Positions 128-26,925 of a stretch of DNA of 26,925 nucleotides are shown here, piece by piece. Position 1 is the stretch's first letter. The number at the start of each line of letters is the position of its first letter. Position numbers and translations under genes: made by a program. The stretch lies in NCBI RefSeq assembly GCF_000003605.2, contig NW_003113318.1, forward strand, positions 1-26,925. Direction: 5' to 3'. The DNA is from Saccoglossus kowalevskii. Lineage: Eukaryota > Hemichordata > Enteropneusta > Harrimaniidae. The notes beneath the pieces were generated by a model, which did not search any database, was not told where the DNA came from, and was given only the letters and a program-made list of their open reading frames with translations.

Positions 128-140
128 AAGGTGTGTGATC
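1..140. other. Unique (non-repeat) left flank of the array
   Basis: These ~140 bases show no visible similarity to the 99-bp unit. The change is abrupt: repeat homology starts at about 141 with the A-run and TTTGACC of the unit, and the 10 bases before it match the unit only weakly. The flank is the only sequence here that could anchor the array to a chromosomal locus. It is open in one minus frame to the window edge (described separately). It is also open in one plus frame from 3 to a TGA at 147-149, but that product is cysteine-rich and looks like an antisense shadow. I see no promoter, splice signal or RNA gene that I would defend. Confidence 0.85.
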
Positions 141-1874
141 AAAATTTGACCTTTTATTACCAATCCCCCAGCCTCTGTAATAGCCAGATATCAGATTGCT
201 GTTGGATGATATGACATGGTCACTCGTGTTGGCTTGACAAAAATTTGACCTTTTATAACCAATCCTCCAGCCTCTGTAATAGCCAGATATCAGATTGCTG
301 TTGGATGATATGACATGGTCACTCGTGTTGGCTTGACAAAAATTTGACCTTTTATAACCAATCCTCCAGCCTCTGTAATAGCCAGATATCAGATTGCTGT
401 TGGATGATATGACATGGTCACTAGTGTTGGCTTGACAACAATTTGACCTTTTATAACCAATCCTCCAGCCTCTGTAATAGCCAGATATCTGATTGTTGTT
501 GGATGATATGACATGGTCACTAGTGTTGGCTTGACAACAATTTGACCTTTTATAACCAATCCTCCAGCCTCTGTAATAGCCAGATATCTGATTGCTGTTG
601 GATGATATGACATGGTCACTAGTGTTGACTTGACAACAATTTGACCTTTTATTACCAATCCTCCAGCCTCTGTAATAGCCAGATATCTGATTGCTGTTGG
701 ATGATATGACATGGTCACTTGTGTTGACTTGACACAAATTTGACCTTTTATTACCAATCCTCCAGCCTCTGTAATAGCCAGATATCTGATTGCTGTTGGA
801 TGATATGACATGGTCACTAGTGTTGACTTGACAACAATTTGACCTTTTATAACCAACTCTCCAGCCTCTGTAATAGCCAGATATCAGATTGCTGTTGGAT
901 GATATGACGTGGTCATTAGTGTTGGCTTGACAAAAAATTGACCTTTTATTACCAATCCTCCAGCCTCTGTAATTGCCAGATATCTGATTGCTGTTGGATG
1001 ATATGACATGGTCACTCGTGTTGACTTGACAACAATTTGACCTTTTATTACCAATCCTCCAGCCTCTGTAATAGCCAGATATCTGATTGCTGTTGGATGA
1101 TATGACATGGTCACTCGTGTTGACTTGACAAAAATTTGACCTTTTATTACCAATCCTCCAGCCTCTGTGATAGCCAGATATCAGATTGCTGTTGGATGAT
1201 ATGACATGGTCACTAGTGTTGACTTGACAAAAATTTGACCTTTTATTACCAATCCTCCAGCCTCTGTAATAGCCAGATATCTGATTGCTGTTGGATGATA
1301 TGACATGGTCACTCGTGTTGACTTGACAAAAATTTGACCTTTTATTACCAATCCTCCAGCCTCTGTGATAGCCAGATATCAGATTGCTGTTGGATGATAT
1401 GACATGGTCACTAGTGTTGACTTGACAAAAATTTGACCTTTTATAACCAATCCTCCAGCCTCTGTAATAGCCAGATATCAGATTGCTGTTGGATGATATG
1501 ACATGGTCACTAGTGTTGGCTTGACAACAATTTGACCTTTTATAACCAATCCTCCAGCCTCTGTAATAGCCAGATATCTGATTGTTGTTGGATGATATGA
1601 CATGGTCACTAGTGTTGGCTTGACAACAATTTGACCTTTTATAACCAATCCTCCAGCCTCTGTAATAGCCAGATATCTGATTGCTGTTGGATGATATGAC
1701 ATGGTCACTAGTGTTGACTTGACAACAATTTGACCTTTTATTACCAATCCTCCAGCCTCTGTAATAGCCAGATATCTGATTGCTGTTGGATGATATGACA
1801 TGGTCACTTGTGTTGACTTGACAAAAATTTGACCTTTTATTACCAATCCTCCAGCCTCTGTAATAGCCATTATA
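120..1874 (-). other. 584-codon open frame through array edge, probably not a gene
   Basis: This minus frame (frame A, 33-residue period containing NTSDHVISSN and GYYRGWRIGNKRS) is open from just after a TGA at 1875-1877 down to a TAA at 120-122, which lies in the unique flank. It contains no ATG start; the only start-like codon noted is a TTG at 737-735. Per period it has one or two cysteines, an NTS N-glycosylation-type sequon and many Ser, Asn, Gly and Arg residues. It stays open because the ATATCTG/ATATCAG variation is only Gln/Leu in this frame. The competing frame B is broken at the same variants. A real secreted repeat protein is not excluded, but lack of a start, signal peptide or conserved frame elsewhere makes a by-product more likely. 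Confidence 0.3.
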
Positions 1875-3087
1875 TCAGATTGTTGTTGGATGATATGACA
1901 TGGTCACTAGTGTTGACTTGACAACAATTTGACCTTTTATTACCAATCCTCCAGCCAATGTAATAGCCAGATATCAGATTGCTGTTGGATGATATGACAT
2001 GGTCACTAGTGTTGGCTTGACAAAAACTTGACCTTTTATTACCAATCCTCCAGCCTCTGTAATAGCCAGATATCTGATTGTTGTTGGATGATATGACATG
2101 GTCACTAGTGTTGACTTGACAACAACTTGACTTTTTATTACCAATCCTCCAGCCTCTGTAATAGCCAGATATCTGATTGCTGTTGGATGATATGACATGG
2201 TCACTAGTGTTGACTTGACAAAAATTTGACCTTTTATTACCAATCCTCCAGCCTCTGTAATAGCCAGATATCTGATTGTTGTTGGATGATATGACATGGT
2301 CACTAGTGTTGACTTGACAACAACTTGACTTTTTATTACCAATCCTCCAGCCTCTGTAATAGCCAGATATCTGATTGCTGTTGGATGATATGACATGGTC
2401 ACTTGTGTTGACTTGACAAAAATTTGACCTTTTATTACCAATCCTCCAGCCTCTGTAATAGCCAGATATCTGATTGCTGTTGGATGATATGACATGGTCA
2501 CTAGTGTTGACTTTACAAAAACTTGACCTTTTATTACCAATCCTCCAGCCTCTGTAATAGCCAGATATCTGATTGTTGTTGGATGATATGACATGGTCAC
2601 TAGTGTTGACTTGACAACAACTTGACTTTTTATTACCAATCCTCCAGCCTCTGTAATAGCCAGATATCTGATTGCTGTTGGATGATATGACATGGTCACT
2701 TGTGTTGACTTGACAAAAATTTGACCTTTTATTACCAATCCTCCAGCCTCTGTAATAGCCAGATATCTGATTGCTGTTGGATGATATGACATGGTCACTA
2801 GTGTTGACTTGACAAAAATTTGACCTTTTATTACCAATCCTCCAGCCTCTGTAATAGCCAGATATCTGATTGTTGTTGGATGATATGACATGGTCACTCG
2901 TGTTGACTTGACACAAATTTGACCTTTTATTACCAATCCTCCAGCCTCTGTAATAGCCAGATATCTGATTGCTGTTGGATGATATGACATGGTCACGCGT
3001 GTTGGCTTGAGAAAAATTTGACCTTTTATTACCTATCCTCCAGCCACTGTAATAGCCAGATATCAGATTGCTGTTGGATGATATCAC
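1870..3087 (-). other. 405-codon frame-A open stretch, probably not a gene
   Basis: This continues the frame-A type reading one indel away from the edge stretch. It is bounded upstream by TAA in a unit carrying TTGACTTAAC (about 3,104) instead of TTGACTTGAC. It is bounded downstream by a TAA created by the 1-bp insertion near 1,869-1,872. The only start is a GTG at 3087 from a private substitution (ATATCACATGG). Inside it, frame B is also open from 2996 to 1974, ten consecutive units with no ATATCAG variant. Two overlapping frames open over a kilobase reflect the 33-codon unit rather than selection on either. Confidence 0.25.
1880..2450. repeat. Block copy: units with AACAACTTGAC(T)5, first location
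   Basis: Units in which the usual AAATTTGACCTTTT becomes AACTTGACTTTTT recur here (near 2,121, 2,321 and 2,621). They are preceded by a unit carrying GCCAATG and ATATCAG. The same unit order is found near 12,150-12,720 at an offset of 10,272 bp (AACAACTT at 2,121 and 12,393). Shared order of several private variants indicates a multi-unit block duplication rather than independent mutation. Confidence 0.75.
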
Positions 3088-4260
3088 ATGGTCACTAGTG
3101 TTGACTTAACAAAAATTTGACCTTTTATAACCAACCCTCCAGCCTCTGTAATAGCCAGATATCTGATTGCTGTTGGATGATATGACATGGTCACTAGTGT
3201 TGATTTGACAAAAATTTGACCTTTTATAACCAACCCTCCAGCCTCTGTAATAGCCAGATATCTGATTGCTGTTGGATGATATGACATGGTCACTAGTGTT
3301 GACTTGACAAAAATTTGACCTTTTATTACCAATCCTCCAACCTATGTAATAGCCAGATATCAGATTGCTGTTGGATGATACGACATGGTCACTAGTGATG
3401 GCTTGACAAAAATTTGACCTTTTATTACCAATCCTCCAGCCTCTGTAATAGCCAGATATCTGATTGCTGTTGGATGATATGACATGGTCACTAGTGTTGA
3501 CTTGACAAAAATTTGACCTTTTATTACCAATCCTCCAGCCACTGTAATAGCCAGATATCTGATTGCTGTTGGATGATATGACATGGTCACTAGTGATGGC
3601 TTGACAAAAATTTGACCTTTTATAACCAACCCTCCAGCCTCTGTAATAGCCAGATATCTGATTGCTGTTGGATGATATGACATGGTCACTAGTGTTGACT
3701 TGACAAAAATTTGACCTTTTATTACCAATCCTCCAGCCTCTGTAATAGCCAGATATCTGATTGTTGTTGGATGATATGACATGGTCACTCGTGTTGACTT
3801 GACAAAAATTTGACCTTTTATTACCAATCCTCTAGCCTCTGTAATAGCCAGATATCTGATTGTTGTTGGATGATATGACATGGTCACTCGTGTTGACTTG
3901 ACAAAAATTTGACCTTTTATTACCAATCCTCTAGCCTCTGTAATAGCCAGATATCTGATTGCTGTTGGATGATATGACATGGTCACTAGTGTTGACTTGA
4001 CAAAAATTTGACCTTTTATAACCAACTCTCCAGCCTTTGTAATAGCCAGATATCTGATTGCTGTTGGATGATGACATGGTCACTAGTGTTGACTTGACAA
4101 AAATTTGACCTTTTATTACCAATCCTCCAGCCTCTGTTATAGCCAGATATCTGATTGTTGTTGGATGATATGACATGGTCACTAGTGTTGACTTGACAAA
4201 AATTTGACCTTTTATTACTAATCCTCCAGCCAATGTAATAGCCAGATATCAGATTGCTGT
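2940..4260. repeat. ~1.3-kb higher-order block, copy 1 of 3
   Basis: The block is defined by an ordered set of rare variants: CACGCGTG at 2,994, TTGACTTAAC near 3,104, CCAACCTATG near 3,338, GATACGAC at 3,377-3,384, CCTCTAGCC twice near 3,830 and 3,930, GCCTTTG near 4,033, and ACTAATCC with GCCAATG at 4,231. The same series recurs near 7,280-8,600 (offset 4,341, rising to 4,346 after a 5-bp insertion) and near 14,290-15,610. Copy 1 lacks the 5-bp insertion carried by the other two. Confidence 0.85.
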
Positions 4261-4480
4261 TGGATGATATGACATGGTCACTCGTGTTGACTTCACAAAA
4301 ATTTGACCTTTTATTACCAATCCTCCAGCCTCTGTAATAGCCAGATATCTGATTGCTGTTGGATGATATGACATGGTCACTAGAGTTGGCTTGACAAAAA
4401 TTTGACCTTTTATTACAAATTCTCCAGCCTCTGTAATAGCCAGATATCTGATTGCAGTTGGATGATATGACATATTCACT
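4000..4480. repeat. Ten-unit local duplication, left copy
   Basis: The segment with GCCTTTG, the 2-bp deletion near 4,071, GTTATAG, ACTAATCC, GCCAATG (4,231), TTGACTTCAC, CACTAGAG, ACAAATTC and CATATTC (4,471) is repeated 988 bp later. The offset is ten 99-bp units minus the 2 bp of one deleted unit. Two further copies of the right-hand part end at CATATTC 8,817 and 15,829. Confidence 0.85.
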
Positions 4481-4989
4481 AGTGTTGACTTGACAAAAAC
4501 TTGACCTTTTATAACCAACTCTCCAGCCTTTGTAATAGCCAGATATCTGATTGCTGTTGGATGATATGACATGGTCACTAGTGTTGACTTGACAAAAATT
4601 TGACCTTTTATTACCAATCCTCCAGCCTCTGTAATAGCCAGATATCTGATTGCTGTTGGATGATATGACATGGTCACTAGTGTTGATTTGACAAAAATTT
4701 GAACTTTTATAACCAACCCTCCAACCTCTGTAATAGCCAGATATCAGATTGCTGTTGGATGATATGACATGGTCACTCGTGTTGACTTCACAAAAAATGG
4801 ACCTTTTATTACCAATCCTCCAGCCTCTGTAATTGCCAGATATCTGATTGCAGTTGGATGATATGACATGGTCACTAGTGTTGACTTGACAAAAATTTGA
4901 CCTTTTATTACCAATCCTCCAGCCTCTGTAATAGCCAGATATCTGATTGCTGTTGGATGATATGACATGGTCACTAGTGTTGACTTGAC

Positions 4990-5470
4990 AAAAATTTGAC
5001 CTTTTATAACCAACTCTCCAGCCTTTGTAATAGCCAGATATCTGATTGCTGTTGGATGATGACATGGTCACTAGTGTTGACTTGACAAAAATTTGACCTT
5101 TTATTACCAATCCTCCAGCCTCTGTTATAGCCAGATATCTGATTGTTGTTGGATGATATGACATGGTCACTAGTGTTGACTTGACAAAAATTTGACCTTT
5201 TATTACTAATCCTCCAGCCAATGTAATAGCCAGATATCAGATTGCTGTTGGATGATATGACATGGTCACTCGTGTTGACTTCACAAAAATTTGACCTTTT
5301 ATTACCAATCCTCCAGCCTCTGTAATAGCCAGATATCTGATTGCTGTTGGATAATATGACATGGTCACTAGAGTTGGCTTGACAAAAATTTGACCTTTTA
5401 TTACAAATTCTCCAGCCTCTGTAATAGCCAGATATCTGATTGCAGTTGGATGATATGACATATTCACTAG
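4990..5470. repeat. Ten-unit local duplication, right copy
   Basis: This copy matches 4,000-4,480 at 988 bp offset (GCCAATG at 5,219, CATATTC at 5,459). Private differences are a GGATAATATGAC unit near 5,351, shared with 8,710 but not with 4,363 or 15,721, and a single-T contraction in GTGTGACTTG near 5,472. The shared GGATAATATG indicates that the 8.6-kb copy derives from this right copy rather than the left one. Confidence 0.8.
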
Positions 5471-5639
5471 TGTGACTTGACAAAAATTTGACCTTTTATT
5501 ACCAATCCTCCAGCCTCTGTAATAGCCAGATATCTGATTGCTGTTGGATGATATGACATGGTCACTAGTGTTGATTTGACAAAAATTTGAACTTTTATAA
5601 CCAACCCTCCAACCTCTGTAATAGCCAGATATCAGATTG

Positions 5640-6480
5640 CTGTTGGATGATATGACATGGTCACTCGTGTTGACTTCACAAAAATTTGACCTTTAATTAC
5701 CAATCCTCCAGCCTCTGTTATAGCCAGATATCAGATTGCTGTTGGATGATGACATGGTCACTCGTGTTGACTTGACAAAAATTTGACCTTTTATTACCAA
5801 CCCTCCAGCCTCTGTTATAGCCAGATATCAGATTGCTGTTGGATGATGACATGGTCACTAGTGTTGACTTGACAACAATTTGACCTTTTATTACCAATCC
5901 TCCAGCCTCTGTTATAGCCAGATATCTGATTGCTGTTGGATGATATGACATGGTCACTAGTGTTGACTTGACAAAAATTTGACCTTTTATTACCAATCCT
6001 CCAGCCTCTGTAATAGCCAGATATCTGATTGCTGTTGGATGATATGACATGGTCACTAGTGTTGATTTGACAAAAATTTGACCTTTTATAACCAACCCTC
6101 CAGCCTCTGTAATAGCCAGATATCTGATTGCTGTTGGATGATATGACATGGTCACTAGTGATGGCTTGACAAAAATTTGACCTTTTATTACCAATCCTCC
6201 AGCCTCTGTGATAGCCAGATATCTATTTGCTGTTGGATGATGACATGGTCACTCGTGTTGACTTGACAAAAATTTGACCTTTTATTACCAATCCTCCAGC
6301 CTCTGTAATAGCCAGATATCTGATTGCTGTTGGATGATATGACATGGTCACTAGTGATGGCTTGACAAAAATTTGACCTTTTATAACCAACCCTCCAGCC
6401 TCTGTAATAGCCAGATATCTGATTGCTGTTGGATGATATGACATGGTCACTAGTGATGGCTTGACAAAATTTGACCTTTT
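5640..6480. repeat. Block with TCTATTTGC unit, copy 1 of 4
   Basis: This run of units contains two 2-bp deletions about 97 bp apart (5,746 and 5,842), an ACAACAAT unit, a GATGGCTTGAC unit and a unit with the rare TCTATTTGC (TATTTGC at 6,224). The same order is found at 12,930-13,800 (TATTTGC at 13,531), 21,400-22,200 (21,924) and 25,730-26,540 (26,259). Offsets from copy 1 are 7,307, 15,700 and 20,035. The 158-residue open strings at 5,718-6,194, 21,418-21,894 and 25,753-26,229 are nearly identical. Confidence 0.85.
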
Positions 6481-6799
6481 ATTACCAATCCTCCAGCCTC
6501 TGTGATAGCCAGATATCTAATTGCTGTGGGATGATGACATGGTCACTCGTGTTGACTTGACAAAAATTGACCTTTTATTACCAATCCTCCAGCCTCTGTA
6601 ATAGCCAGATATCTGATTGCTGTTGGATGATATGACATGGTCACTAGTGATGGCTTGACAAAAATTTGACCTTTTATAACCAACCCTCCAGCCTCTGTAA
6701 TAGCCAGATATCTGATTGCTGTTGGATGATATGACATGGTCACTAGTGATGGCTTGACAAAAATTTGACCTTTTATTACCAATCCTCCAGCCTCTGTAA

Positions 6800-9000
6800 T
6801 TGCCAGATATCAGATTGCTGTTGGATGATATGACATGGTCACTCGTGTTGACTTGACAAAAATTTGACCTTTTATTACCAATCCTCCAGCCTCTGTAATA
6901 GTCAGATATCTGATTGCTGTTGGATGATATGACATGGTCACTAGTGTTGATTTGACAAAAATTTGACCTTTTATTACCAATCCTCCAGCCTCTGTAATAG
7001 CCAGATATCTAATTGTTGTTGGATGATATGACATGGTCACTCGTGTTGACTTGACACAAATTTGACCTTTTATTACCAATCCTCCAGCCTCTGTAATAGC
7101 CAGATATCTGATTGCTGTTGGATGATATGACATGGTCACTAGTGTTGATTTGACAAAAATTTGACCTTTTATAACCAACCCTCCAGCCTCTGTAATAGCC
7201 AGATATCTGATTGCTGTTGGATGATATGACATGGTCACTCGTGATGGCTTGACAAAAATTTGACCTTTCATTACCAATCCTCCCGCCTCTGTAATAGCCA
7301 GATATCTGATTGCTGTTGGATGATATGACATGGTCACGCGTGTTGGCTTGACAAAAATTTGACCTTTTATTACCAATCCTCCAGCCACTGTAATAGCCAG
7401 ATATCAGATTGCTGTTGGATGATATGACATGGTCACTAGTGTTGACTTAACAAAAATTTGACCTTTTATAACCAACCCTCCAGCCTCTGTAATAGCCAGA
7501 TATCTGATTGCTGTTGGATGATATGACATGGTCACTAGTGTTGATTTGACAAAAATTTGACCTTTTATAACCAACCCTCCAGCCTCTGTAATAGCCAGAT
7601 ATCTGATTGCTGTTGGATGATATGACATGGTCACTAGTGTTGACTTGACAAAAATTTGACCTTTTATTACCAATCCTCCAACCTATGTAATAGCCAGATA
7701 TCAGATTGCTGTTGGATGATACGACATGGTCACTAGTGATGGCTTGACAAAAATTTGACCTTTTATTACCAATCCTCCAGCCTCTGTAATAGCCAGATAT
7801 CTGATTGCTGTTGGATGATATGACATGGTCACTAGTGTTGACTTGACAAAAATTTGACCTTTTATTACCAATCCTCCAGCCACTGTAATAGCCAGATATC
7901 TGATTGCTGTTGGATGATATGACATGGTCACTAGTGATGGCTTGACAAAAATTTGACCTTTTATAACCAACCCTCCAGCCTCTGTAATAGCCAGATATCT
8001 GATTGCTGTTGGATGATATGACATGGTCACTCGTGTTGACTTGACAAAAATTTGACCTTTTATTACCAATCCTCTAGCCTCTGTAATAGCCAGATATCTG
8101 ATTGTTGTTGGATGATATGACATGGTCACTCGTGTTGACTTGACAAAAATTTGACCTTTTATTACCAATCCTCTAGCCTCTGTAATAGCCAGATATCTGA
8201 TTGCTGTTGGATGATATGACATGGTCACTAGTGTTGACTTGACAAAAAATGGACCTTTTATTACCAATCCTCCAGCCACTGTAATAGCCAGATATCTGAT
8301 TGCTGTTGGATGATATGACATGACATGGTCACTAGTGTTGACTTGACAAAAATTTGACCTTTTATAACCAACTCTCCAGCCTTTGTAATAGCCAGATATC
8401 TGATTGCTGTTGGATGATGACATGGTCACTAGTGTTGACTTGACAAAAATTTGACCTTTTATTACCAATCCTCCAGCCTCTGTTATAGCCAGATATCTGA
8501 TTGTTGTTGGATGATATGACATGGTCACTAGTGTTGACTTGACAAAAATTTGACCTTTTATTACTAATCCTCCAGCCAATGTAATAGCCAGATATCAGAT
8601 TGCTGTTGGATGATATGACATGGTCACTCGTGTTGACTTCACAAAAATTTGACCTTTTATTACCAATCCTCCAGCCTCTGTAATAGCCAGATATCTGATT
8701 GCTGTTGGATAATATGACATGGTCACTAGAGTTGGCTTGACAAAAATTTGACCTTTTATTACAAATTCTCCAGCCTCTGTAATAGCCAGATATCTGATTG
8801 CAGTTGGATGATATGACATATTCACTAGTGTTGACTTGACAAAAATTTGACCTTTTATTACCAATCCTCCAGCCTCTGTAATAGCCAGATATCTGATTGC
8901 TGTTGGATGATATGACATGGTCACTAGTTTTGATTTGACAAAAATTTGAACTTTTATAACCAACCCTCCAACCTCTGTAATAGCCAGATATCAGATTGCT
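6800..9000. repeat. ~2.2-kb block, first copy of the 7,012-bp-offset duplication
   Basis: Private variants here recur 7,012 bp to the right: TCCCGCC at 7,281, CACGCGTG at 7,335, the 104-bp unit at 8,312, and CATATTC at 8,817. The encoded frame-B strings of 6,810-7,388 and 13,825-14,400 agree except at the very end, and those of 7,701-8,579 and 14,614-15,591 agree except for one inserted 33-residue unit. The similarity ends near 9,000, where the two copies continue into different units. Confidence 0.85.
7280..8600. repeat. ~1.3-kb higher-order block, copy 2 of 3
   Basis: Markers present here are CACGCGTG at 7,335, CCAACCTATG near 7,679, GATACGAC with CGAC at 7,722, two CCTCTAGCC units, a 104-bp unit with an extra GACAT at ~8,312-8,330, the 2-bp deletion near 8,415, and GCCAATG at 8,577. 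Spacing from the first to the third marker is 387 bp, identical to copy 1. It is embedded in the larger 7.0-kb duplication and is the probable parent, or sister, of copy 3. Confidence 0.85.
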
Positions 9001-11039
9001 GTTGGATGATATGACATGGTCACTCGTGTTGACTTCACAAAAATTTGACCTTTAATTACCAATCCTCCAGCCTCTGTTATAGCCAGATATCAGATTGCTG
9101 TTGGATGATGACATGGTCACTCGTGTTGACTTGACAAAATTTGACCTTTTTATTACCAACCCTCCAGCCTCTGTTATAGCCAGATATCAGATTGCTGTTG
9201 GATGATATGACGTGGTCATTAGTGTGGCTGACAAAAATTGACTTTATTACCAATCCTCCAGCTCTGTAATTGCCAGATATGTGATTGCTGTTGGATGATA
9301 TGACATGGTCACTCGTGTTGACTTGACAACAATTTGACCTTTTATTACCAATCCTCCAGCCTCTGTAATAGCCAGATATCTGATTGCTGTTGGATGATAT
9401 GACATGGTCACTCGTGTTGACTTGACAAAAATTTGACCTTTTATTACCAATCCTCCAGCCTCTGTGATAGCCAGATATCAGATTGCTGTTGGATGATATG
9501 ACATGGTCACTAGTGTTGACTTGACAAAAATTTGACCTTTTATTACCAATCCTCCAGCCTCTGTAATAGCCAGATATCTGATTGCTGTTGGATGATGACA
9601 TGGTCACTAGTGTTGACTTGACAACAATTTGACCTTTTATAACCAACCCTCCAGCCTCTGTTATAGCCAGATATCTGATTGTTGTTGGATGATATGACAT
9701 GATCACTAGTGTTGACTTGACAAAAATTTGACCTTTTATTACCAATCCTCCAGCCTCTGTAATAGCCAGATATCAGATTGCTGTTGGATGATATGACATG
9801 GTCACTAGTGTTGACTTGACAAAAATTTGACCTTTTATTACCAATCCTCCAGCCTCTGTAATAGTCAGATATCTGATTGTTGTTGGATGATATGACATGG
9901 TCACTAGTGATGGCTTGACAAAAATTTGACCTTTTATTACCAATCCTCCAGCCTCTGTAATAGTCAGATATCTGATTGTTGTTGGATGATATGACATGGT
10001 CACTAGTGTTGACTTGACAACAATTTGACCTTTTATTACCAATCCTCCAGCCTCTGTAATAGTCAGATATCTGATTGTTGTTGGATGATATGACATGGTC
10101 ACTAGTGTTGACTTGACAACAATTTGACCTTTTATTACCAATCCTCCAGCCTCTGTAATAGCCAGATATCTGATTGCTGTTGGATGATATGACATGGTCA
10201 CTAGTGTTGACTTGACAAAAATTTGACCTTTTATTACCAATCCTCTAGCCTCTGTAATAGCCAGATATCTGATTGCTGTTGGATGATATGACATGGTCAC
10301 TAGTGTTGACTTGACAAAAATTTGACCTTTTATTACCAATCCTCCAGCCTCTGTAATAGCCAGATATCTAATTGCTGTTGGATGATATGACATGGTCACT
10401 AGTGTTGACTTGACAACAATTTGACCTTTTATTACCAATCCTCCAGCCTCTGTAATAGCCAGATATCTGATTGCTGTTGGATGATGACATGGTCACTAGT
10501 GTTGACTTGACAAAAATTTGACCTTTTATTACCAATCCTCCAGCCTCTGTAATAGCCAGATATCTGATTGCTGTTGGATGATATGACATGGTCACTCGTG
10601 TTGACTTGACAAAAATTTGACCTTTTATTACCAATCCTCCAGCCTCTGTAATAGCCAGATATCAGATTGCGGTTGGATGATATGACATGGTCACTAGTGT
10701 TGACTTGACAAAAATTTGACCTTTTATAACCAACCCTCCAGCCTCTGTAATAGCCAGATATCTGATTGCTGTTGGATGATATGACATGGTCACTAGTGAT
10801 GGCTTGACAAAAACTTGACCTTTTATTACCAATCCTCCAGCCTCTGTAATAGCCAGATATCTGATTGCTGTTGGATGATATGACATGGTCACTAGTGTTG
10901 ACTTGACAAAAATTTTACCTTTTATAACCAACCCTCCAGCCTCTGTAATAGCCAGATATCTGATTGCTGTTGGATGATATGACATGGTCACTAGTGTTGA
11001 CTTGACAAAAATTTGACCTTTTATAACCAACCCTCCAGC

Positions 11040-12020: not shown

Positions 12021-12149
12021 TCCTCCAGCCACTGTAATAGTCAGATATCTGATTGCTGTTGGATGATATGACATGGTCACTAGTGTTGACTTGACAACAA
12101 TTTGACCTTTTATTACCAATCCTCCAGCCTCTGTAATAGCCAGATATCA

Positions 12150-12720: not shown

Positions 12721-12929
12721 GCCTCTGTAATAGCCAGATATCTGATTGCTGTTGGATGATATGACATGGTCACTAGTGTTGACTTGACAAAAATTTGACC
12801 TTTTATTACCAATCCTCCAGCCTCTGTAATAGCCAGATATCTGATTGCTGTTGGATGATATGACATGGTCACTAGTTTTGATTTGACAAAAATTTGAACT
12901 TTTATAACCAACCCTCCAACCTCTGTAAT

Positions 12930-13800
12930 AGCCAGATATCAGATTGCTGTTGGATGATATGACATGGTCACTCGTGTTGACTTCACAAAAATTTGACCTT
13001 TAATTACCAATCCTCCAGCCTCTGTTATAGCCAGATATCAGATTGCTGTTGGATGATGACATGGTCACTCGTGTTGACTTGACAAAAATTTGACCTTTAA
13101 TTACCAACCCTCCAGCCTCTGTTATAGCCAGATATCAGATTGCTGTTGGATGATGACATGGTCACTAGTGTTGACTTGACAACAATTTGACCTTTTATTA
13201 CCAATCCTCCAGCCTCTGTTATAGCCAGATATCTGATTGCTGTTGGATGATATGACATGGTCACTAGTGTTGACTTGACAAAAATTTGACCTTTTGTTAC
13301 CAATCCTCCAGCCTCTGTAATAGCCAGATATCTGATTGCTGTTGGATGATATGACATGGTCACTAGTGTTGATTTGACAAAAATTTGACCTTTTATAACC
13401 AACCCTCCAGCCTCTGTAATAGCCAGATATCTGATTGCTGTTGGATGATATGACATGGTCACTAGTGATGGCTTGACAAAAATTTGACCTTTTATTACCA
13501 ATCCTCCAGCCTCTGTGATAGCCAGATATCTATTTGCTGTTGGATGATGACATGGTCACTCGTGTTGACTTGACAAAAATTTGACCTTTTATTACCAATC
13601 CTCCAGCCTCTGTAATAGCCAGATATCTGATTGCTGTTGGATGATATGACATGGTCACTAGTGATGGCTTGACAAAAATTTGACCTTTTATAACCAACCC
13701 TCCAGCCTCTGTAATAGCCAGATATCTGATTGCTGTTGGATGATATGACATGGTCACTAGTGATGGCTTGACAAAAATTTGACCTTTTATTACCAATCCT
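12930..13800. repeat. Block with TCTATTTGC unit, copy 2 of 4
   Basis: The order of variants is as in copy 1. Here the second 2-bp-deleted unit is preceded by CTTTAATTACC, and one unit has CTTTTGTTACC (near 13,294) instead of CTTTTATTACC. Both are useful private markers of this copy. Confidence 0.8.
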
Positions 13801-13809
13801 CCAGCCTCT

Positions 13810-16000
13810 GTGATAGCCAGATATCTAATTGCTGTTGGATGATGACATGGTCACTCGTGTTGACTTGACAAAAATTTGACCTTTTATTACCAATCCTCCA
13901 GCCTCTGTAATAGTCAGATATCTGATTGCTGTTGGATGATATGACATGGTCACTAGTGTTGATTTGACAAAAATTTGACCTTTTATTACCAATCCTCCAG
14001 CCTCTGTAATAGCCAGATATCTGATTGTTGTTGGATGATATGACATGGTCACTCGTGTTGACTTGACACAAATTTGACCTTTTATTACCAATCCTCCAGC
14101 CTCTGTAATAGCCAGATATCTGATTGCTGTTGGATGATATGACATGGTCACTAGTGTTGATTTGACAAAAATTTGACCTTTTATAACCAACCCTCCAGCC
14201 TCTGTAATAGCCAGATATCTGATTGCTGTTGGATGATATGACATGGTCACTCGTGATGGCTTGACAAAAATTTGACCTTTCATTACCAATCCTCCCGCCT
14301 CTGTAATAGCCAGATATCTGATTGCTGTTGGATGATATGACATGGTCACGCGTGTTGGCTTGACAAAAATTTGACCTTTTATTACCAATCCTCCAGCCAC
14401 TGTAATAGCCAGATATCAGATTGCTGTTGGATGATATGACATGGTCACTAGTGTTGACTTAACAAAAATTTGACCTTTTATAACCAACCCTCCAGCCTCT
14501 GTAATAGCCAGATATCTGATTGCTGTTGGATGATATGACATGGTCACTAGTGTTGACTTGACAAAAATTTGACCTTTTATTACCAATCCTCCAACCTATG
14601 TAATAGCCAGATATCAGATTGCTGTTGGATGATACGACATGGTCACTAGTGATGGCTTGACAAAAATTTGACCTTTTATTACCAATCCTCCAGCCTCTGT
14701 AATAGCCAGATATCTGATTGCTGTTGGATGATATGACATGGTCACTAGTGTTGACTTGACAAAAATTTGACCTTTTATTACCAATCCTCCAGCCACTGTA
14801 ATAGCCAGATATCTGATTGCTGTTGGATGATATGACATGGTCACTAGTGATGGCTTGACAAAAATTTGACCTTTTATAACCAACCCTCCAGCCTCTGTAA
14901 TAGCCAGATATCTGATTGCTGTTGGATGATATGACATGGTCACTAGTGTTGACTTGACAAAAATTTGACCTTTTATTACCAATCCTCCAGCCTCTGTAAT
15001 AGCCAGATATCTGATTGTTGTTGGATGATATGACATGGTCACTCGTGTTGACTTGACAAAAATTTGACCTTTTATTACCAATCCTCTAGCCTCTGTAATA
15101 GCCAGATATCTGATTGTTGTTGGATGATATGACATGGTCACTCGTGTTGACTTGACAAAAATTTGACCTTTTATTACCAATCCTCTAGCCTCTGTAATAG
15201 CCAGATATCTGATTGCTGTTGGATGATATGACATGGTCACTAGTGTTGACTTGACAAAAAATGGACCTTTTATTACCAATCCTCCAGCCACTGTAATAGC
15301 CAGATATCTGATTGCTGTTGGATGATATGACATGACATGGTCACTAGTGTTGACTTGACAAAAATTTGACCTTTTATAACCAACTCTCCAGCCTTTGTAA
15401 TAGCCAGATATCTGATTGCTGTTGGATGATGACATGGTCACTAGTGTTGACTTGACAAAAATTTGACCTTTTATTACCAATCCTCCAGCCTCTGTTATAG
15501 CCAGATATCTGATTGTTGTTGGATGATATGACATGGTCACTAGTGTTGACTTGACAAAAATTTGACCTTTTATTACTAATCCTCCAGCCAATGTAATAGC
15601 CAGATATCAGATTGCTGTTGGATGATATGACATGGTCACTCGTGTTGACTTCACAAAAATTTGACCTTTTATTACCAATCCTCCAGCCTCTGTAATAGCC
15701 AGATATCTGATTGCTGTTGGATGATATGACATGGTCACTAGAGTTGGCTTGACAAAAATTTGACCTTTTATTACAAATTCTCCAGCCTCTGTAATAGCCA
15801 GATATCTGATTGCAGTTGGATGATATGACATATTCACTAGTGTTGACTTGACAAAAACTTGACCTTTTATTACCAATCCTCCAGCCTCTGTAATAGCCAG
15901 ATATCTGATTGCTGTTGGATGATATGACATGGTCACTAGTGTTGATTTGACAAAAATTTGAACTTTTATAACCAACCCTCCAACCTCTGTAATAGCCAGA
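13810..16000. repeat. ~2.2-kb block, second copy of the 7,012-bp-offset duplication
   Basis: This is the copy of 6,800-9,000, with matching markers at 14,293 (TCCCGCC), 14,347, 15,324 and 15,829 (CATATTC). Units just to the left (12,930-13,800) also resemble 5,640-6,480, but at an offset of 7,307. The 295-bp difference equals three units with one 2-bp deletion, so a three-unit segment present at 6,480-6,780 is missing here. Confidence 0.85.
14290..15610. repeat. ~1.3-kb higher-order block, copy 3 of 3
   Basis: This copy carries CACGCGTG at 14,347, CCAACCTATG near 14,592, CGAC at 14,635, the 104-bp unit with extra GACAT at 15,324, and the 2-bp deletion near 15,428. Relative to copy 2 the offset is 7,012 at the first marker, 6,913 at GATACGAC and 7,012 again at the 104-bp unit. 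One 99-bp unit was therefore lost (near 14,540) and one gained (near 15,000) since the copies separated. Confidence 0.85.
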
Positions 16001-17140
16001 TATCAGATTGCTGTTGGATGATATGACATGGTCACTCGTGTTGACTTCACAAAAAATGGACCTTTTATTACCAATCCTCCAGCCTCTGTAATTGCCAGAT
16101 ATCTGATTGCAGTTGGATGATATGACATGGTCACTAGTGTTGACTTGACAAAAATTTGACCTTTTATTACCAATCCTCCAGCCTCTGTAATAGCCAGATA
16201 TCTGATTGCTGTTGGATGATATGACATGGTCACTAGTGTTGATTTGACAAAAATTTGACCTTTTATAACCAACCCTCCAGCCTCTGTAATAGCCAGATAT
16301 CAGATTGCTGTTGGATGATATGACATGGTCACTAGTGATGGCTTGACAAAAATTTGACCTTTTATTACTAATCCTCCAGCCTCTGTAATAGCCAGATATC
16401 TGATTGCTGTTGGATGATATGACATGGTCACTAGTGTTGATTTGACAAAAATTTGACCTTTTATAACCAACCCTCCAGCCTCTGTAATAGCCAGATATCA
16501 GATTGCTGTTGGATGATATGACATGGTCACTAGTGTTGACTTGACAAAAATTTGACCTTTTATTACTAATCCTCCAGCCAATGTAATAGCCAGATATCAG
16601 ATTGCTGTTGGATGATATGACATGGTCACTCGTGTTGACTTCACAAAAATTTGACCTTTTATTACCAATCCTCCAGCCTCTGTAATAGCCAGATATCTGA
16701 TTGCTGTTGGATGATATGACATGGTCACTAGAGTTGGCTTGACAAAAATTTGACCTTTTATTACAAATTCTCCAGCCTCTGTAATAGCCAGATATCTGAT
16801 TGCTGTTGGATGATATGACATGGTCACTAGTGTTGATTTGACAAAAATTTGACCTTTTATAACCAACCCTCCAGCCTCTGTAATAGCCAGATATCAGATT
16901 GCTGTTGGATGATATGACATGGTCACTAGTGTTGACTTGACAAAAATTTGACCTTTTATTACTAATCCTCCAGCCAATGTAATAGCCAGATATCAGATTG
17001 CTGTTGGATGATATGACATGGTCACTCGTGTTGACTTCACAAAAATTTGACCTTTTATTACCAATCCTCCAGCCTCTGTAATAGCCAGATATCTGATTGC
17101 TGTTGGATGATATGACATGGTCACTAGAGTTGGCTTGACA
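15730..17140. repeat. Local 10-unit and 4-unit duplications
   Basis: The CACTAGAGTTGGC unit is found at 15,741, 16,731 and 17,127 (spacings 990 and 396, exactly ten and four units). The ACTAATCC/GCCAATG unit is at 16,565 and 16,961, also 396 apart. The three copies diverge little, which suggests recent slippage-like or unequal-exchange events inside an older block. Confidence 0.85.
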
Positions 17141-17879
17141 AAAATTTTACCTTTTATTACAAATTCTCCAGCCTCTGTAATAGCCAGATATCTGATTGCT
17201 GTTGGATGATATGACATGGTCACTCGTGTTGACTTGACAAAAATTTGACCTTTTATTACCAATCCTCCAGCCTCTGTAATAGTCAGATATCTGATTGCTG
17301 TTGGATGATATGACATGGTCACTAGTGTTGACTTGACAAAAATTTGACCTTTTATTACCAATCCTCCAGCCTCTGTAATAGCCAGATATCTGATTGCTGT
17401 TGGATGATATGACATGGTCACTAGTGTTGATTTGACAAAAATTTGAACTTTTATAACCAACCCTCCAACCTCTGTAATAGCCAGATATCTGATTGCTGTT
17501 GGATGATATGACATGGTCACTAGTGTTGATTTGACAACAATTTGACCTTTTATTACCAACCCTCCAGCCTCTGTAATAGCCAGATATCAGATTGCTGTTG
17601 GATGATATGACATGGTCACTCGTGTTGACTTCACAAAAATTTGACCTTTTATTACCAATCCTCCAGCCTCTGTAATAGCCAGATATCTGATTGCTGTTGG
17701 ATGATATGACATGGTCACTAGTGTTGACTTAACAAAAATTTGACCTTTTATAACCAACCCTCCAGCCTCTGTGATAGCCAGATATCTGATTGCTGTTGGA
17801 TGATATGACATGGTCACTCGTGTTGACTTGACAACAATTTGACCTTTTATTACCAATCCTCCAGCCTCTGTAATAGCCA

Positions 17880-19080
17880 GATATCTGATTGCTGTTGGAT
17901 GATGACATGGTCACTCGTGTTGACTTGACAAAAATTTGACCTTTTATTACCAATCCTCCAGCCTCTGTAATAGCCAGATATCTGATTGCTGTTGGATGAT
18001 ATGACATGGTCACTAGTGTTGACTTGACAAAAATTTGACCTTTTATTACCAACCCTCCAGCCTCTGTAATAGCCAGATATCTGATTGTTGTTGGATGATA
18101 TGACATGGTCACTAGTCTTGATTTTACAACAATTTGACCTTTTATTACCAACCCTCCAGCCTCTGTTATAGCCAGATATCTGATTGCTGTTGGATGATAT
18201 GACATGGTCACTAGTGTTGGCTTGACAAAAATTTGACCTTTTATAACCAACCCTCCAGCCTCTGTTATAGCCAGATATCTGATTGCTGTTGGATGATATG
18301 ACATGGTCACTAGTGTTGACTTGACAAAAATTTGACCTTTTATAACCAACCCTCCAACCTCTGTAATAGCCAGATATCTGATTGCTGTTGGATGATATGA
18401 CATGGTCACTAGTGTTGACTTGACAAAAATTTGACCTTTTATTACCAATCCTCCAGCCTCTGTAATAGCCAGATATCTGATTGCTGTTGGATGATGACAT
18501 GGTCACTCGTGTTGACTTGACAAAAATTTGACCTTTTATTACCAATCCTCCAGCCTCTGTAATAGCCAGATATCTGATTGCTGTTGGATGATATGACATG
18601 GTCACTAGTGTTGACTTGACAAAAATTTGACCTTTTATTACCAACCCTCCAGCCTCTGTAATAGCCAGATATCTGATTGTTGTTGGATGATATGACATGG
18701 TCACTAGTCTTGATTTTACAACAATTTGACCTTTTATTACCAACCCTCCAGCCTCTGTTATAGCCAGATATCTGATTGCTGTTGGATGATATGACATGGT
18801 CACTAGTCTTGATTTTACAACAATTTGACCTTTTATTACCAACCCTCCAGCCTCTGTTATAGCCAGATATCTGATTGCTGTTGGATGATGACATGGTCAC
18901 TCGTGTTGACTTGACAAAAATTTGACCTTTTATTACCAATCCTCCAGCCTCTGTAATAGCCAGATATCTGATTGCTGTTGGATGATATGACATGGTCACT
19001 AGTGTTGACTTGACAAAAATTTGACCTTTTATTACCAACCCTTCAGCCTCTGTAACTGCCAGATATCTGATTGCTGTTGG
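17880..19080. repeat. Six-unit local duplication (592-bp offset)
   Basis: A run starting with a 2-bp-deleted unit and including the rare CTTGATTTTACAAC unit is repeated 592 bp later (six units minus 2 bp): CTTGATTTT at 18,117 and 18,709. The latter unit is duplicated again 99 bp further on (18,808). Two-bp deletions mark the start of each round near 17,900, 18,491 and 18,886. Confidence 0.8.
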
Positions 19081-19900
19081 ATGATGACATGGTCACTAGT
19101 CTTGATTTGACAAAAATTTGACCTTTTATTACCAATCCTCCAGCTCTGTAATAGCCAGATATCTGATTGCTGTTGGATGATATGACATGGTCACTAGTGT
19201 TGGCTTGACAAAAATTTGACCTTTTATAACCAACCCTCCAGCCTCTGTAACTGCCAGATATCTGATTGCTGTTGGATGATGACATGGTCACTAGTCTTGA
19301 TTTGACAAAAATTTGACCTTTTATTACCAATCCTCCAGCCTCTGTAATAGCCAGATATCTGATTGCTGTTGGATGATATGACATGGTCACTAGTGTTGAC
19401 TTGACAAAAACTTGACCTTTTATAACCAACCCTCCAACCTCTGTAATAGCCAGATATCTGATTGCTGTTGGATGATATGACGTGGTCATTAGTGTTGACT
19501 TGACAACAATTTGACCTTTTATTACCAATCCTCCAGCCTCTGTAATAGCCAGATATCTGATTGCTGTTGGATGATATGACATGGTCACTAGTGTTGGCTT
19601 GACAACAATTTGACCTTTTATTACCAATCCTCCAGCCTCTGTAATAGCCAGATATCTGATTGTTGTTGGATGATATGACATGGTCACTAGTGTTGGCTTG
19701 ACAACAATTTGACCTTTTATTACCAATCCTCCAGCCTCTGTAATAGCCAGATATCTGATTGTTGTTGGATGATATGACATGGTCACTAGTGTTGGCTTGA
19801 CAACAATTTGACCTTTTATAACCAACCCTCCAGCCTCTGTAATAGCCAGATATCTGATTGCTGTTGGATGATATGACATGGTCACGAGTGTTGAATTGAC
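19040..19900. repeat. Block with GACGTGGTCATT unit, paired with 23.9-24.3 kb
   Basis: Units with GTAACTGCC, CTTGATTTGAC, AACTTGACC and GACGTGGTCATT appear in the same order near 23,880-24,330. The CGTGG motif is at 19,481 and 24,112 (offset 4,631). The copy here is longer, with three consecutive TTGGCTTGACAACAAT units. Confidence 0.7.
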
Positions 19901-20639
19901 AAAAATTTGACCTTTTATTACCAACCCTCCAGCCTCTGTTATAGCCAGATATCAGATTGCTGTTGGATGATATGACATGGTCATTAGTGTTGACTTGACA
20001 AAAACTTGACCTTTTATAACCAACCCTCCAACCTCTGTAATAGCCAGATATCTGATTGCTGTTGGATGATATGACATAGTCACGAGTGTTGAATTGACAA
20101 AAATTTGACCTTTTATTACCAACCCTCCAGCCTCTGTTATAGCCAGATATCAGATTGCTGTTGGATGATGACATGGTCACTAGTGTTGACTTGACAACAA
20201 TTTGACCTTTTATTACCAATCCTCCAGCCTCTGTTATAGCCAGATATCTGATTTCTGTTGGATGATATGACATGGTCACTAGTGTTGACTTGACAAAAAT
20301 TTGACCTTTTATAACCAACCCTCCAGCCTCTGTAATAGCCAGATATCAGATTGCTGTTGGATGATATGACATAGTCACTAGTGTTGACTTGACAACAATT
20401 TGACCTTTTATTACCAACCCTCCAGCCTCTGTAACTGCCAGATATCTGATTGCTGTTGGATGATGACATGGTCACTAGTCTTGATTTGACAAAAATTTGA
20501 CCTTTTATTACCAATCCTCCAGCCTCTGTAATAGCCAGATATCTGATTGCTGTTGGATGATATGACATGGTCACTAGTGTTGACTTGACAAAAATTTGAC
20601 CTTTTATTACCAATCCTCCAGCCTCTGTAATAGCCAGAT

Positions 20640-21110
20640 ATCTGATTGCTGTTGGATGATATGACATGGTCACTAGTGTTGGCTTGACAACAATTTGACC
20701 TTTTATTACCAATCCTCCAGCCTCTGTAATAGCCAGATATCTGATTGTTGTTGGATGATATGACATGGTCACTAGTGTTGGCTTGACAACAATTTGACCT
20801 TTTATTACCAATCCTCCAGCCTCTGTAATAGCCAGATATCTGATTGTTGTTGGATGATATGACATGGTCACTAGTGTTGGCTTGACAACAATTTGACCTT
20901 TTATAACCAACCCTCCAGCCTCTGTAATAGCCAGATATCTGATTGCTGTTGGATGATATGACATGGTCATTAGTGTTGACTTGACAAAAACTTGACCTTT
21001 TATAACCAACCCTCCAACCTCTGTAATAGCCAGATATCTGATTGCTGTTGGATGATATGACATGGTCACGAGTGTTGAATTGACAAAAATTTGACATTTT
21101 ATTACCAACC
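20640..21110. repeat. TTGGCTT/ACAACAAT block, copy 1 of 3
   Basis: Three successive TTGGCTTGACAACAAT units are followed by a GGTCATTAG unit (GGTC at 20,965) and a CACGAGTGTTGAATTGAC unit. The series recurs at offsets 2,461 (GGTC at 23,426) and a further 2,071 (25,497). The TTGACATTTTATT substitution (21,091 and 23,552) is shared by copies 1 and 2 only. Confidence 0.85.
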
Positions 21111-21399
21111 CTCCAGCCTCTGTTATAGCCAGATATCAGATTGCTGTTGGATGATGACATGGTCACTAGTGTTGACTTGACAACAATTTGACCTTTTATT
21201 ACCAATCCTCCAGCCTCTGTTATAGCCAGATATCTGATTGCTGTTGGATGATATGACATGGTCACTAGTGTTGACTTGACACAAATTTGACCTTTTATAA
21301 CCAACCCTCCAGCCTCTGTAATAGCCAGATATCTGATTGCTGTTGGATGATATGACATGGTCACGAGTGTTGACTTGACAAAAATTTGACCTTTTATTA

Positions 21400-22200
21400 C
21401 CAACCCTCCAGCCTCTGTTATAGCCAGATATCAGATTGCTGTTGGATGATGACATGGTCACTCGTGTTGACTTGACAAAAATTTGACCTTTTATTACCAA
21501 CCCTCCAGCCTCTGTTATAGCCAGATATCAGATTGCTGTTGGATGATGACATGGTCACTAGTGTTGACTTGACAACAATTTGACCTTTTATTACCAATCC
21601 TCCAGCCTCTGTTATAGCCAGATATCTGATTGCTGTTGGATGATATGACATGGTCACTAGTGTTGACTTGACAAAAATTTGACCTTTTATTACCAATCCC
21701 CCAGCCTCTGTAATAGCCAGATATCTGATTGCTGTTGGATGATATGACATGGTCACTAGTGTTGATTTGACAAAAAATTGACCTTTTATAACCAACCCTC
21801 CAGACTCTGTAATAGCCAGATATCTGATTGCTGTTGGATGATATGACATGGTCACTAGTGATGGCTTGACAAAAATTTGACCTTTTATTACCAATCCTCC
21901 AGCCTCTGTGATAGCCAGATATCTATTTGCTGTTGGATGATGACATGGTCACTCGTGTTGACTTGACAAAAATTTGACCTTTTATTACCAATCCTCCAGC
22001 CTCTGTAATAGCCAGATATCTGATTGCTGTTGGATGATATGACATGGTCACTAGTGATGGCTTGACAAAAATTTGACCTTTTATAACCAACCCTCCAGCC
22101 TCTGTAATAGCCAGATATCTGATTGCTGTTGGATGATATGACATGGTCACTAGTGATGGCTTGACAAAAATTTGACCTTTTATTACCAATCCTCCAGCCT
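21400..22200. repeat. Block with TCTATTTGC unit, copy 3 of 4
   Basis: The variant series of copy 1 recurs, with private changes CAATCCCCCAG near 21,694 and CCAGACTCTG near 21,801. The offset to copy 4 is 4,335 bp. Confidence 0.8.
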
Positions 22201-22429
22201 CTGTGATAGCCAGATATCTAATTGCTGTTGGATGATGACATGGTCACTCGTGTTGACTTGACAAAAATTTGACCTTTTATTACCAATCCTCCAGCCTCTG
22301 TAATAGTCAGATATCTGATTGCTGTTGGATGATATGACATGGTCACTAGTGTTGATTTGACAAAAATTTGACCTTTTATTACCAATCCTCCAGCCTCTGT
22401 AATAGCCAGATATCTGATTGCTGTTGGAT

Positions 22430-22890
22430 GATATGACTTGGTCACGAGTGTTGACTTGACAAAAATTTGACCTTTTATAACCAACCCTCCAGCCTCTGTA
22501 ATAGCCAGATATCTGATTGCTGTTGGATGATATGACATGGTCACTAGTGTTGATTTGACAAAAATTTGACCTTTTATTACCAATCCCCCAGCCTCTGTAA
22601 TAGTCAGATATCTGATTGCTGTTGGATGATATGACATGGTCACTAGTGATGGCTTGACAAAAATTTGACCTTTTATTACCAATCCTCCAGCCTCTGTAAT
22701 AGTCAGATATCTGATTGCTGTTGGATGATATGACATGGTCACTAGTTTTGACTTGACAAAAATTTGACCTTTTATAACCAACTCTCCAGCCTCTGTAATA
22801 GCCAGATATCTGATTGCTGTTGGATGATGACATGGTCACTAGTGTTGACTTGACAAAAATTTGACCTTTTATTACCAATCCTCCAGCCAA
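22430..22890. repeat. GTCAGATATC/CAATCCCCCAG block, paired with 24.6-25.06 kb
   Basis: CAATCCCCCAG at 22,581 and 24,749 (offset 2,168) sits in the same unit context in both places: GTCAGATATC units, a GATGGCTTGAC unit, a CACTAGTTTTGA unit and an AACTCTCCAGCC unit with the 2-bp deletion that follows. The second copy carries a private GATGACATGAC near 24,895. Confidence 0.75.
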
Positions 22891-23099
22891 TGTAATAGCC
22901 AGATATCTGATTGCTGTTGGATGATGACATGGTCACTAGTGTTGACTTGACAAAAATTTGACCTTTTATTACCAATCCTCCAGCCTCTGTAATAGCCAGA
23001 TATCTGATTGCTGTTGGATGATATGACATGGTCACTAGTGTTGACTTGACAAAAATTTGACCTTTTATTACCAATCCTCCAGCCTCTGTAATAGCCAGA

Positions 23100-23570
23100 T
23101 ATCTGATTGCTGTTGGATGATATGACATGGTCACTAGTGTTGGCTTGACAACAATTTGACCTTTTATTACCAATCCTCCAGCCTCTGTAATAGCCAGATA
23201 TCTGATTGTTGTTGGATGATATGACATGGTCACTAGTGTTGGCTTGACAACAATTTGACCTTTTATTACCAATCCTCCAGCCTCTGTAATAGCCAGATAT
23301 CTGATTGTTGTTGGATGATATGACATGGTCACTAGTGTTGGCTTGACAACAATTTGACCTTTTATAACCAACCCTCCAGCCTCTGTAATAGCCAGATATC
23401 TGATTGCTGTTGGATGATATGACATGGTCATTAGTGTTGACTTGACAAAAACTTGACCTTTTATAACCAACCCTCCAACCTCTGTAATAGCCAGATATCT
23501 GATTGCTGTTGGATGATATGACATGGTCACGAGTGTTGAATTGACAAAAATTTGACATTTTATTACCAAC
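23100..23570. repeat. TTGGCTT/ACAACAAT block, copy 2 of 3
   Basis: This copy matches copy 1 at 2,461 bp offset, including the rare TTGACATTTTATT variant at 23,552. The segment that follows (23,590-23,880, with GATTTCTGTTGG) also resembles 20,140-20,400, so units have been reshuffled between the copies. Confidence 0.85.
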
Positions 23571-24371
23571 CCTCCAGCCTCTGTTATAGCCAGATATCAG
23601 ATTGCTGTTGGATGATGACATGGTCACTAGTGTTGACTTGACAACAATTTGACCTTTTATTACCAATCCTCCAGCCTCTGTTATAGCCAGATATCTGATT
23701 TCTGTTGGATGATATGACATGGTCACTAGTGTTGACTTGACAAAAATTTGACCTTTTATAACCAACCCTCCAGCCTCTGTAATAGCCAGATATCAGATTG
23801 CTGTTGGATGATATGACATAGTCACTAGTGTTGACTTGACAACAATTTGACCTTTTATTACCAACCCTCCAGCCTCTGTAACTGCCAGATATCTGATTGC
23901 TGTTGGATGATGACATGGTCACTAGTCTTGATTTGACAAAAATTTGACCTTTTATTACCAATCCTCCAGCCTCTGTTATAGCCAGATATCTGATTGCTGT
24001 TGGATGATATGACATGGTCACTAGTGTTGACTTGACAAAAACTTGACCTTTTATAACCAACCCTCCAACCTCTGTAATAGCCAGATATCTGATTGCTGTT
24101 GGATGATATGACGTGGTCATTAGTGTTGACTTGACAACAATTTGACCTTTTATTACCAATCCTCCAGCCTCTGTAATAGCCAGATATCTGATTGCTGTTG
24201 GATGATATGACATGGTCACTAGTGTTGGCTTGACAACAATTTGACCTTTTATTACCAATCCTCCAGCCTCTGTAATAGCCAGATATCTGATTGTTGTTGG
24301 ATGATATGACATGGTCACTAGTGTTGGCTTGACAAAAATTTGACCTTTTATTACCAACCCTCCAGCCTCTG

Positions 24372-25835
24372 TTATAGCCAGATATCAGATTGCTGTTGGA
24401 TGATGACATGGTCACTAGTGTTGACTTGACAACAATTTGACCTTTTATTACCAATCCTCCAGCCTCTGTTATAGCCAGATATCTGATTTCTGTTGGATGA
24501 TATGACATGGTCACTAGTGTTGACTTGACAAAAATTTGACCTTTTATAACCAACCCTCCAGCCTCTGTAATAGCCAGATATCTGATTGCTGTTGGATGAT
24601 ATGACATGGTCACGAGTGTTGACTTGACAAAAATTTGACCTTTTATAACCAACCCTCCAGCCTCTGTAATAGCCAGATATCTGATTGCTGTTGGATGATA
24701 TGACATGGTCACTAGTGTTGATTTGACAAAAATTTGACCTTTTATTACCAATCCCCCAGCCTCTGTAATAGTCAGATATCTGATTGCTGTTGGATGATAT
24801 GACATGGTCACTAGTGATGGCTTGACAAAAATTTGACCTTTTATTACCAATCCTCCAGCCTCTGTAATAGTCAGATATCTGATTGCTGTTGGATGACATG
24901 ACATGGTCACTAGTTTTGATTTGACAAAAATTTGACCTTTTATAACCAACTCTCCAGCCTCTGTAATAGCCAGATATCTGATTGCTGTTGGATGATGACA
25001 TGGTCACTAGTGTTGACTTGACAAAAATTTGACCTTTTATTACCAATCCTCCAGCCAATGTAATAGCCAGATATCTGATTGCTGTTGGATGATATGACAT
25101 GGTCACTAGTGTTGACTTGACAAAAATTTGACCTTTTATTACCAATCCTCCAGCCTCTGTAATAGCCAGATATCTGATTGCTGTTGGATGATATGACATG
25201 GTCACTAGTGTTGGCTTGACAACAATTTGACCTTTTATTACCAATCCTCCAGCCTCTGTAATAGCCAGATATCTGATTGTTGTTGGATGATATGACATGG
25301 TCACTAGTGTTGGCTTGACAACAATTTGACCTTTTATTACCAATCCTCCAGCCTCTGTAATAGCCAGATATCTGATTGTTGTTGGATGATATGACATGGT
25401 CACTAGTGTTGGCTTGACAACAATTTGACCTTTTATAACCAACCCTCCAGCCTCTGTAATAGCCAGATATCTGATTGCTGTTGGATGATATGACATGGTC
25501 ATTAGTGTTGACTTGACAAAAACTTGACCTTTTATAACCAACCCTCCAACCTCTGTAATAGCCAGATATCTGATTGCTGTTGGATGATATGACATGGTCA
25601 CGAGTGTTGAATTGACAAAATTTGACCTTTTATTACCAACCCTCCAGCCTCTGTAATAGCCAGATATCTGATTGCTGTTGGATGATATGACATGGTCACG
25701 AGTGTTGACTTGACAAAAATTTGACCTTTTATTACCAACCCTCCAGCCTCTGTTATAGCCAGATATCAGATTGCTGTTGGATGATGACATGGTCACTCGT
25801 GTTGACTTGACAAAAATTTGACCTTTTATTACCAA
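24372..25835 (-). other. 487-codon mosaic open frame built by frame switching
   Basis: This is the longest start-to-stop frame in the window, and it shows why array ORFs are unreliable. Reading leftward it starts in frame B (VIKGQIFVKS), moves to frame A at the 2-bp deletion near 25,776, and returns to frame B at a 1-bp A-run contraction near 25,616. It passes to frame A again at the 2-bp deletion near 24,985. It ends when the 2-bp deletion near 24,398 throws frame A into the stop-rich third frame (HVIIQQQSDIWL then stop). Each 33-residue segment is thus one of two unrelated peptides in alternating order, which is hard to reconcile with one folded product. Confidence 0.25.
25180..25630. repeat. 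TTGGCTT/ACAACAAT block, copy 3 of 3
   Basis: The unit order matches copies 1 and 2, with GGTCATTAG at 25,497. The terminal TTGAATTGAC unit has a normal TTGACCTTTT and a 1-bp shorter A-run (near 25,616). That contraction is what joins the two frames of the 487-codon mosaic open stretch. Confidence 0.85.
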
Positions 25836-26540
25836 CCCTCCAGCCTCTGTTATAGCCAGATATCAGATTGCTGTTGGATGATGACATGGTCACTAGTGTT
25901 GACTTGACAACAATTTGACCTTTTATTACCAATCCTCCAGCCTCTGTTATAGCCAGATATCTGATTGCTGTTTGATGATATGACATGGTCACTAGTGTTG
26001 ACTTGACAAAAATTTGACCTTTTATTACCAATCCTCCAGCCTCTGTAATAGCCAGATATCTGATTGCTGTTGGATGATATGACATGGTCACTAGTGTTGA
26101 TTTGACAAAAATTTGACCTTTTATAACCAACCCTCCAGCCTCTGTAATAGCCAGATATCTGATTGCTGTTGGATGATATGACATGGTCACTAGTGATGGC
26201 TTGACAAAAATTTGACCTTTTATTACCAATCCTCCAGCCTCTGTGATAGCCAGATATCTATTTGCTGTTGGATGATGACATGGTCACTCGTGTTGACTTG
26301 ACAAAAATTTGACCTTTTATTACCAATCCTCCAGCCTCTGTAATAGCCAGATATCTGATTGCTGTTGGATGATATGACATGGTCACTAGTGATGGCTTGA
26401 CAAAAATTTGACCTTTTATAACCAACCCTCCAGCCTCTGTAATAGCCAGATATCTGATTGCTGTTGGATGATATGACATGGTCACTAGTGATGGCTTGAC
26501 AAAAATTTGACCTTTTATTACCAATCCTCCAGCCTCTGTG
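25730..26540. repeat. Block with TCTATTTGC unit, copy 4 of 4
   Basis: The variant series of copy 1 recurs, with a private GCTGTTTGATG near 25,972. It runs directly into a second round of the three-unit sub-block (26,540-26,830), so this copy has been extended at its right end. Confidence 0.8.
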
Positions 26541-26830
26541 ATAGCCAGATATCTAATTGCTGTTGGATGATGACATGGTCACTCGTGTTGACTTGACAAA
26601 AATTTGACCTTTTATTACCAATCCTCCAGCCTCTGTAATAGCCAGATATCTGATTGCTGTTGGATGATATGACATGGTCACTAGTGATGGCTTGACAAAA
26701 ATTTGACCTTTTATAACCAACCCTCCAGCCTCTGTAATAGCCAGATATCTGATTGCTGTTGGATGATATGACATGGTCACTAGTGATGGCTTGACAAAAA
26801 TTTGACCTTTTATTACCAATCCTCCAGCCT
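26240..26830. repeat. Three-unit (295-bp) higher-order repeat, two tandem rounds
   Basis: A trio of units (99 + 99 + 97 bp) is repeated in tandem here. Each trio ends with GTGATAG plus TCTATTTGC or TCTAATTGC and a 2-bp deletion, and its other units carry the CACTAGTGATGGC variant. The corresponding 88-residue strings at 26,258-26,524 and 26,553-26,819 are identical apart from the last residue. The same trio is seen near 6,200-6,800, 13,520-13,840 and 21,920-22,230, in one or two rounds, so its copy number varies between blocks. Confidence 0.8.
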
Positions 26831-26925
26831 CTGTAATTGCCAGATATCAGATTGCTGTTGGATGATATGACATGGTCACTCGTGTTGACTTGACAAAATT
26901 TGACCTTTTTATTACCAATCCTCCA

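Follow-up and report, generated by a model that had tools for sequence, protein, structure and literature searches.

A single head-to-tail array of a 99-bp unit fills the stretch of DNA analysed here (the window, 26,925 nucleotides) from position 141 to its right edge. In kind this array is real, ordinary satellite DNA, for which long pure arrays are normal, and we consider it very probable that it is non-coding satellite DNA, most likely of a eukaryote's chromosome. If the array acts at all, it would do so as heterochromatin DNA with a packaging or spacing role rather than through a product.

The extent of the array was established in two ways. Tandem Repeats Finder, a run that the original prediction had proposed, returned one array at 141..26925 on the plus strand, with a period of 99, 271.3 copies, and 94% matches; wrap-around alignment of the window to the consensus resolved the same interval into 271 complete units followed, at the window's right edge, by an incomplete one of 31 bp (26895..26925, plus strand). 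The array therefore begins at 141 and runs past the right edge of the window, and the original description of a single-family satellite of about 270 head-to-tail units filling the window from that position was borne out. As a satellite should be, 141..26925 is thus a long head-to-tail array of one unit.

Most of the 271 complete units are 99 bp long (223 units), with the remainder at 97 bp (36), 98 bp (7), 104 bp (2), and 100, 96, and 95 bp (1 each). Positions 69-70 of the unit are absent in 37 of the 271, comprising all 36 of the 97-base units and the 96-base unit. Small insertions (of 1 or of 2+3 bases) occur in 4 of the 271 complete units and also in the partial unit. No foreign insert was found within the array, and we detected no inverted stretch, the top opposite-strand matches (among the best ten) being 11-bp words with an E value of 2.1; likewise, no inverted repeats were found within the first 3000 bases. 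The further claim that the units follow one another free of insertion, inversion, or foreign sequence accordingly holds for inversions and foreign DNA, but must give way to the small insertions. As a separate observation, the sole two 104-bp units (8245..8348 and 15257..15360) share identical small insertions; they lie 7012 bases apart, and both fall within an exact 704-bp repeat that has the same spacing.

To the left of the array lies a non-satellite flank (1..140) with no recognisable gene, whose longest match to the unit is 8 bp. Two of its six reading frames, one on each strand, are open throughout, the minus frame reaching the window edge. Peptides of 42, 48, and 63 residues from this flank gave no Pfam match at the cut-off; the 42- and 63-residue peptides gave no NCBIfam match, the 42-residue peptide had no match among PDB sequences, and the 63-residue peptide had none among phages. 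Pattern searches with the 63-residue peptide gave 101 prokaryotic and 4 viral contig matches, none of which was confirmed as a relative. Given that no family was recognised for its peptides, we rejected the left flank as a gene.

The units are closely similar to one another throughout. Identity to the consensus averages 0.965 (range 0.919 to 1.000), pairwise identity among units averages 0.941, and similarity is even along the array, at 0.960 to 0.971 per 30-unit bin (a single unit being left for the last bin). Superimposed on this uniformity is a pattern of long-distance block duplication. We observed 23 identical runs of at least three units recurring at constant distance, whereas 200 shuffles of the unit order gave 0.045 such runs on average and never more than 1. 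Permitting up to two differences per unit, there are 20 near-identical runs of six or more units, the longest spanning 12 units, and 43 exact repeats of at least 250 bases are present. Of the window's exact direct repeats, the longest (799 bp) occupies 3208..4006, with its second copy at 14462..15260. The 12-unit block, identified by near-run comparison at unit indices 56-67 (5681..6858), recurs at indices 259-270 (25716..26894) with at most two differences per unit, and shorter related blocks start at index 130 (position 12988) and index 215 (position 21381); all of these features lie on the plus strand. Units lacking positions 69-70 follow one another at spacings of 1, 4, and 3 in the same pattern at indices 56, 130, 215, and 259.

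Unit-by-unit slippage, on the other hand, seems not to have been the dominant process, since adjacent units resemble each other barely more than randomly paired ones do: neighbour identity is 0.94396, the shuffle mean is 0.94092, and the largest value among 2000 shuffles (0.94400) lies above that observed. Multi-unit blocks duplicated by unequal exchange would produce just such a long-distance pattern. We infer that the array grew by unequal exchange, or by related recombination, copying blocks of several units, and the same exchange or recombination would keep the units similar. Copies that are kept alike and that show block duplication, as found here, are a further mark of the satellite class.

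Satellites of similar length have been described in several organisms, and one of them bears on a more specific reading, namely that the array belongs to its species' functional centromere and carries CENP-A/CenH3 nucleosomes. This reading is a special case of the non-coding satellite explanation, and both can be true; we regard it as possible but rather doubtful. Two papers (PMC6117089 and PMC6795482) describe a 99-bp satellite of Drosophila miranda as centromere-associated by assembly and FISH, which by analogy may favour a centromeric role here; the two share unit length and tandem arrangement. Two units, moreover, amount to 198 bp, which is near a common nucleosome spacing. The D. miranda satellite is described there as heavily AT-rich with a 10-bp A/T periodicity (no number being given), wording that does not suit the present unit well, at about 61% A+T; the comparison concerns these properties rather than the letters of the two units. 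Against a centromeric role, the A/T dinucleotide periodicity of our unit near 10 bp does not exceed that of shuffled sequence (three dinucleotide sets, with p 0.32, 0.56, and 0.41), the consensus agrees with the CENP-B box core at 6 of 9 bases at best, and the okra paper (PMC10809672) considers a length of 99 bp likely to be unsuitable for centromeres.

The remaining satellites of this length offer further parallels. AeSat-E of okra, described in PMC10809672, is likewise 99 bp, but its GC content of 48 to 52% sets it apart from the 38 to 40% observed here. ISR-2 of Ixodes scapularis is presented in PMC4748124 as a tandem repeat of 95-99 bp; its length range is similar to that of our array (units mostly 99 and 97 bp, with extremes of 95 and 104), and it is likened to the array by length alone. 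Fam2b of the Drosophila ananassae subgroup, with 99-bp monomers according to PMC11917152, has unit length and tandem arrays in common with the array here, a likeness by description alone.

With regard to composition, the G+C content stays between 38 and 40% along the window. In the array, CpG occurs at 0.08 of expectation and TpG at 1.9, a strong CpG depletion and TpG excess. This combination would fit a methylated genome, but the signal is weak because all units share one consensus and in effect constitute a single observation. Folding of one unit was unremarkable on either strand: the z scores were -1.28 and -1.81, and shuffled sequences folded equally well in 21 and 8 of 200 cases.

That the array was made or lengthened by an assembly or sequencing artefact appears very unlikely. 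The long exact repeats, at up to 799 bp, could hide a mis-join, and the copy number is that of the assembled sequence; yet the 271 complete units comprise 137 distinct aligned rows, with shared variants arranged in blocks. This speaks against the mere copying of a single unit, from which identical units would result.

We find it scarcely credible that the minus strand encodes a protein of 33-residue repeats, given the frame shifts, the stops, and the outcome of a column-shuffle control. The consensus has two stop-free minus frames, and the period had originally been described as exactly 33 codons; in fact, 99 bp is the length of 223 of the 271 units, and 47 of the 271 have a length that is indivisible by three and shifts the frame. 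Among the 226 gap-free units (the 45 units with gaps being omitted), every unit contains a stop in each plus frame and in minus frame 2, as do 15 units in minus frame 0 and 43 in minus frame 1. Substitution counts by frame, which are not independent and include shared variants many times over, point in conflicting directions: minus frame 0 shows fewer stop changes than expected (15 versus 36.5), but also fewer synonymous changes (76 versus 128.7) and more non-synonymous ones (592 versus 517.8), while minus frame 1 shows more synonymous (257 versus 191.3) and fewer non-synonymous changes (369 versus 456.2) than expected, but more stops (57 versus 35.5). The synonymous excess is no sign of coding, as a like excess (201 versus 147.5 expected) appears in minus frame 2, where none of the 226 gap-free units is open.

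Further, the longest stop-free run in the six frames (694 codons) is equalled when columns are shuffled among units, with small insertions and the partial unit omitted: such arrays average 712 codons, and 48 of 100 reach 694. Mean diversity in the three codon-position classes (0.065, 0.032, and 0.063) varies no more than it does when columns are shuffled (p 0.60). The repeated consensus peptides match 7 and 8 Pfam families, in every case with a score below the family's cut-off; one of these candidates, PF09264 (E value 0.0019, 18.4 bits against a cut-off of 25.8), was taken as a chance match. We therefore rejected a coding repeat, and by the evidence of its sequence the array would count as non-coding, as expected for a satellite. 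The significance at first attached to the codon-multiple period does not survive these comparisons, and the period is best taken as a coincidence, since a third of all lengths are divisible by three and the rule is broken by 47 of the 271 units. With respect to RNA products, neither an Rfam match at the gathering score nor a tRNA match by ARAGORN was found.

Searches for relatives of the unit covered several collections. A blastn search with the first 1200 bases found no match among phages or plasmids, and exact patterns of the array found none in viral contigs (two patterns) or prokaryote contigs (one pattern), such scans requiring exact matches and being liable to miss diverged relatives. 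It is on these negative results in prokaryote, phage, plasmid, and virus collections, and on the type of array, that the probable assignment to a eukaryote is based. The consensus peptide gave 6 pattern matches in viral contigs, none of them confirmed. A search of the literature for six 12-letter words of the unit did not find it in print: no paper contained two of six such words, and the 36 papers that contained a single one looked unrelated by title. The unit may nevertheless already be a named satellite, the other satellites of about 99 bp having been compared by description only. The joint proposition that it represents an unnamed satellite family, amplified through duplication of multi-unit blocks and functioning as the species' centromere repeat, strikes us as improbable.

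In many species, a large share of centromeric and heterochromatic DNA consists of satellite arrays, and lineages often have satellites of their own. The unit described here could serve as a chromosome marker for its species, and the array provides one more example of growth by the duplication of blocks of several units.
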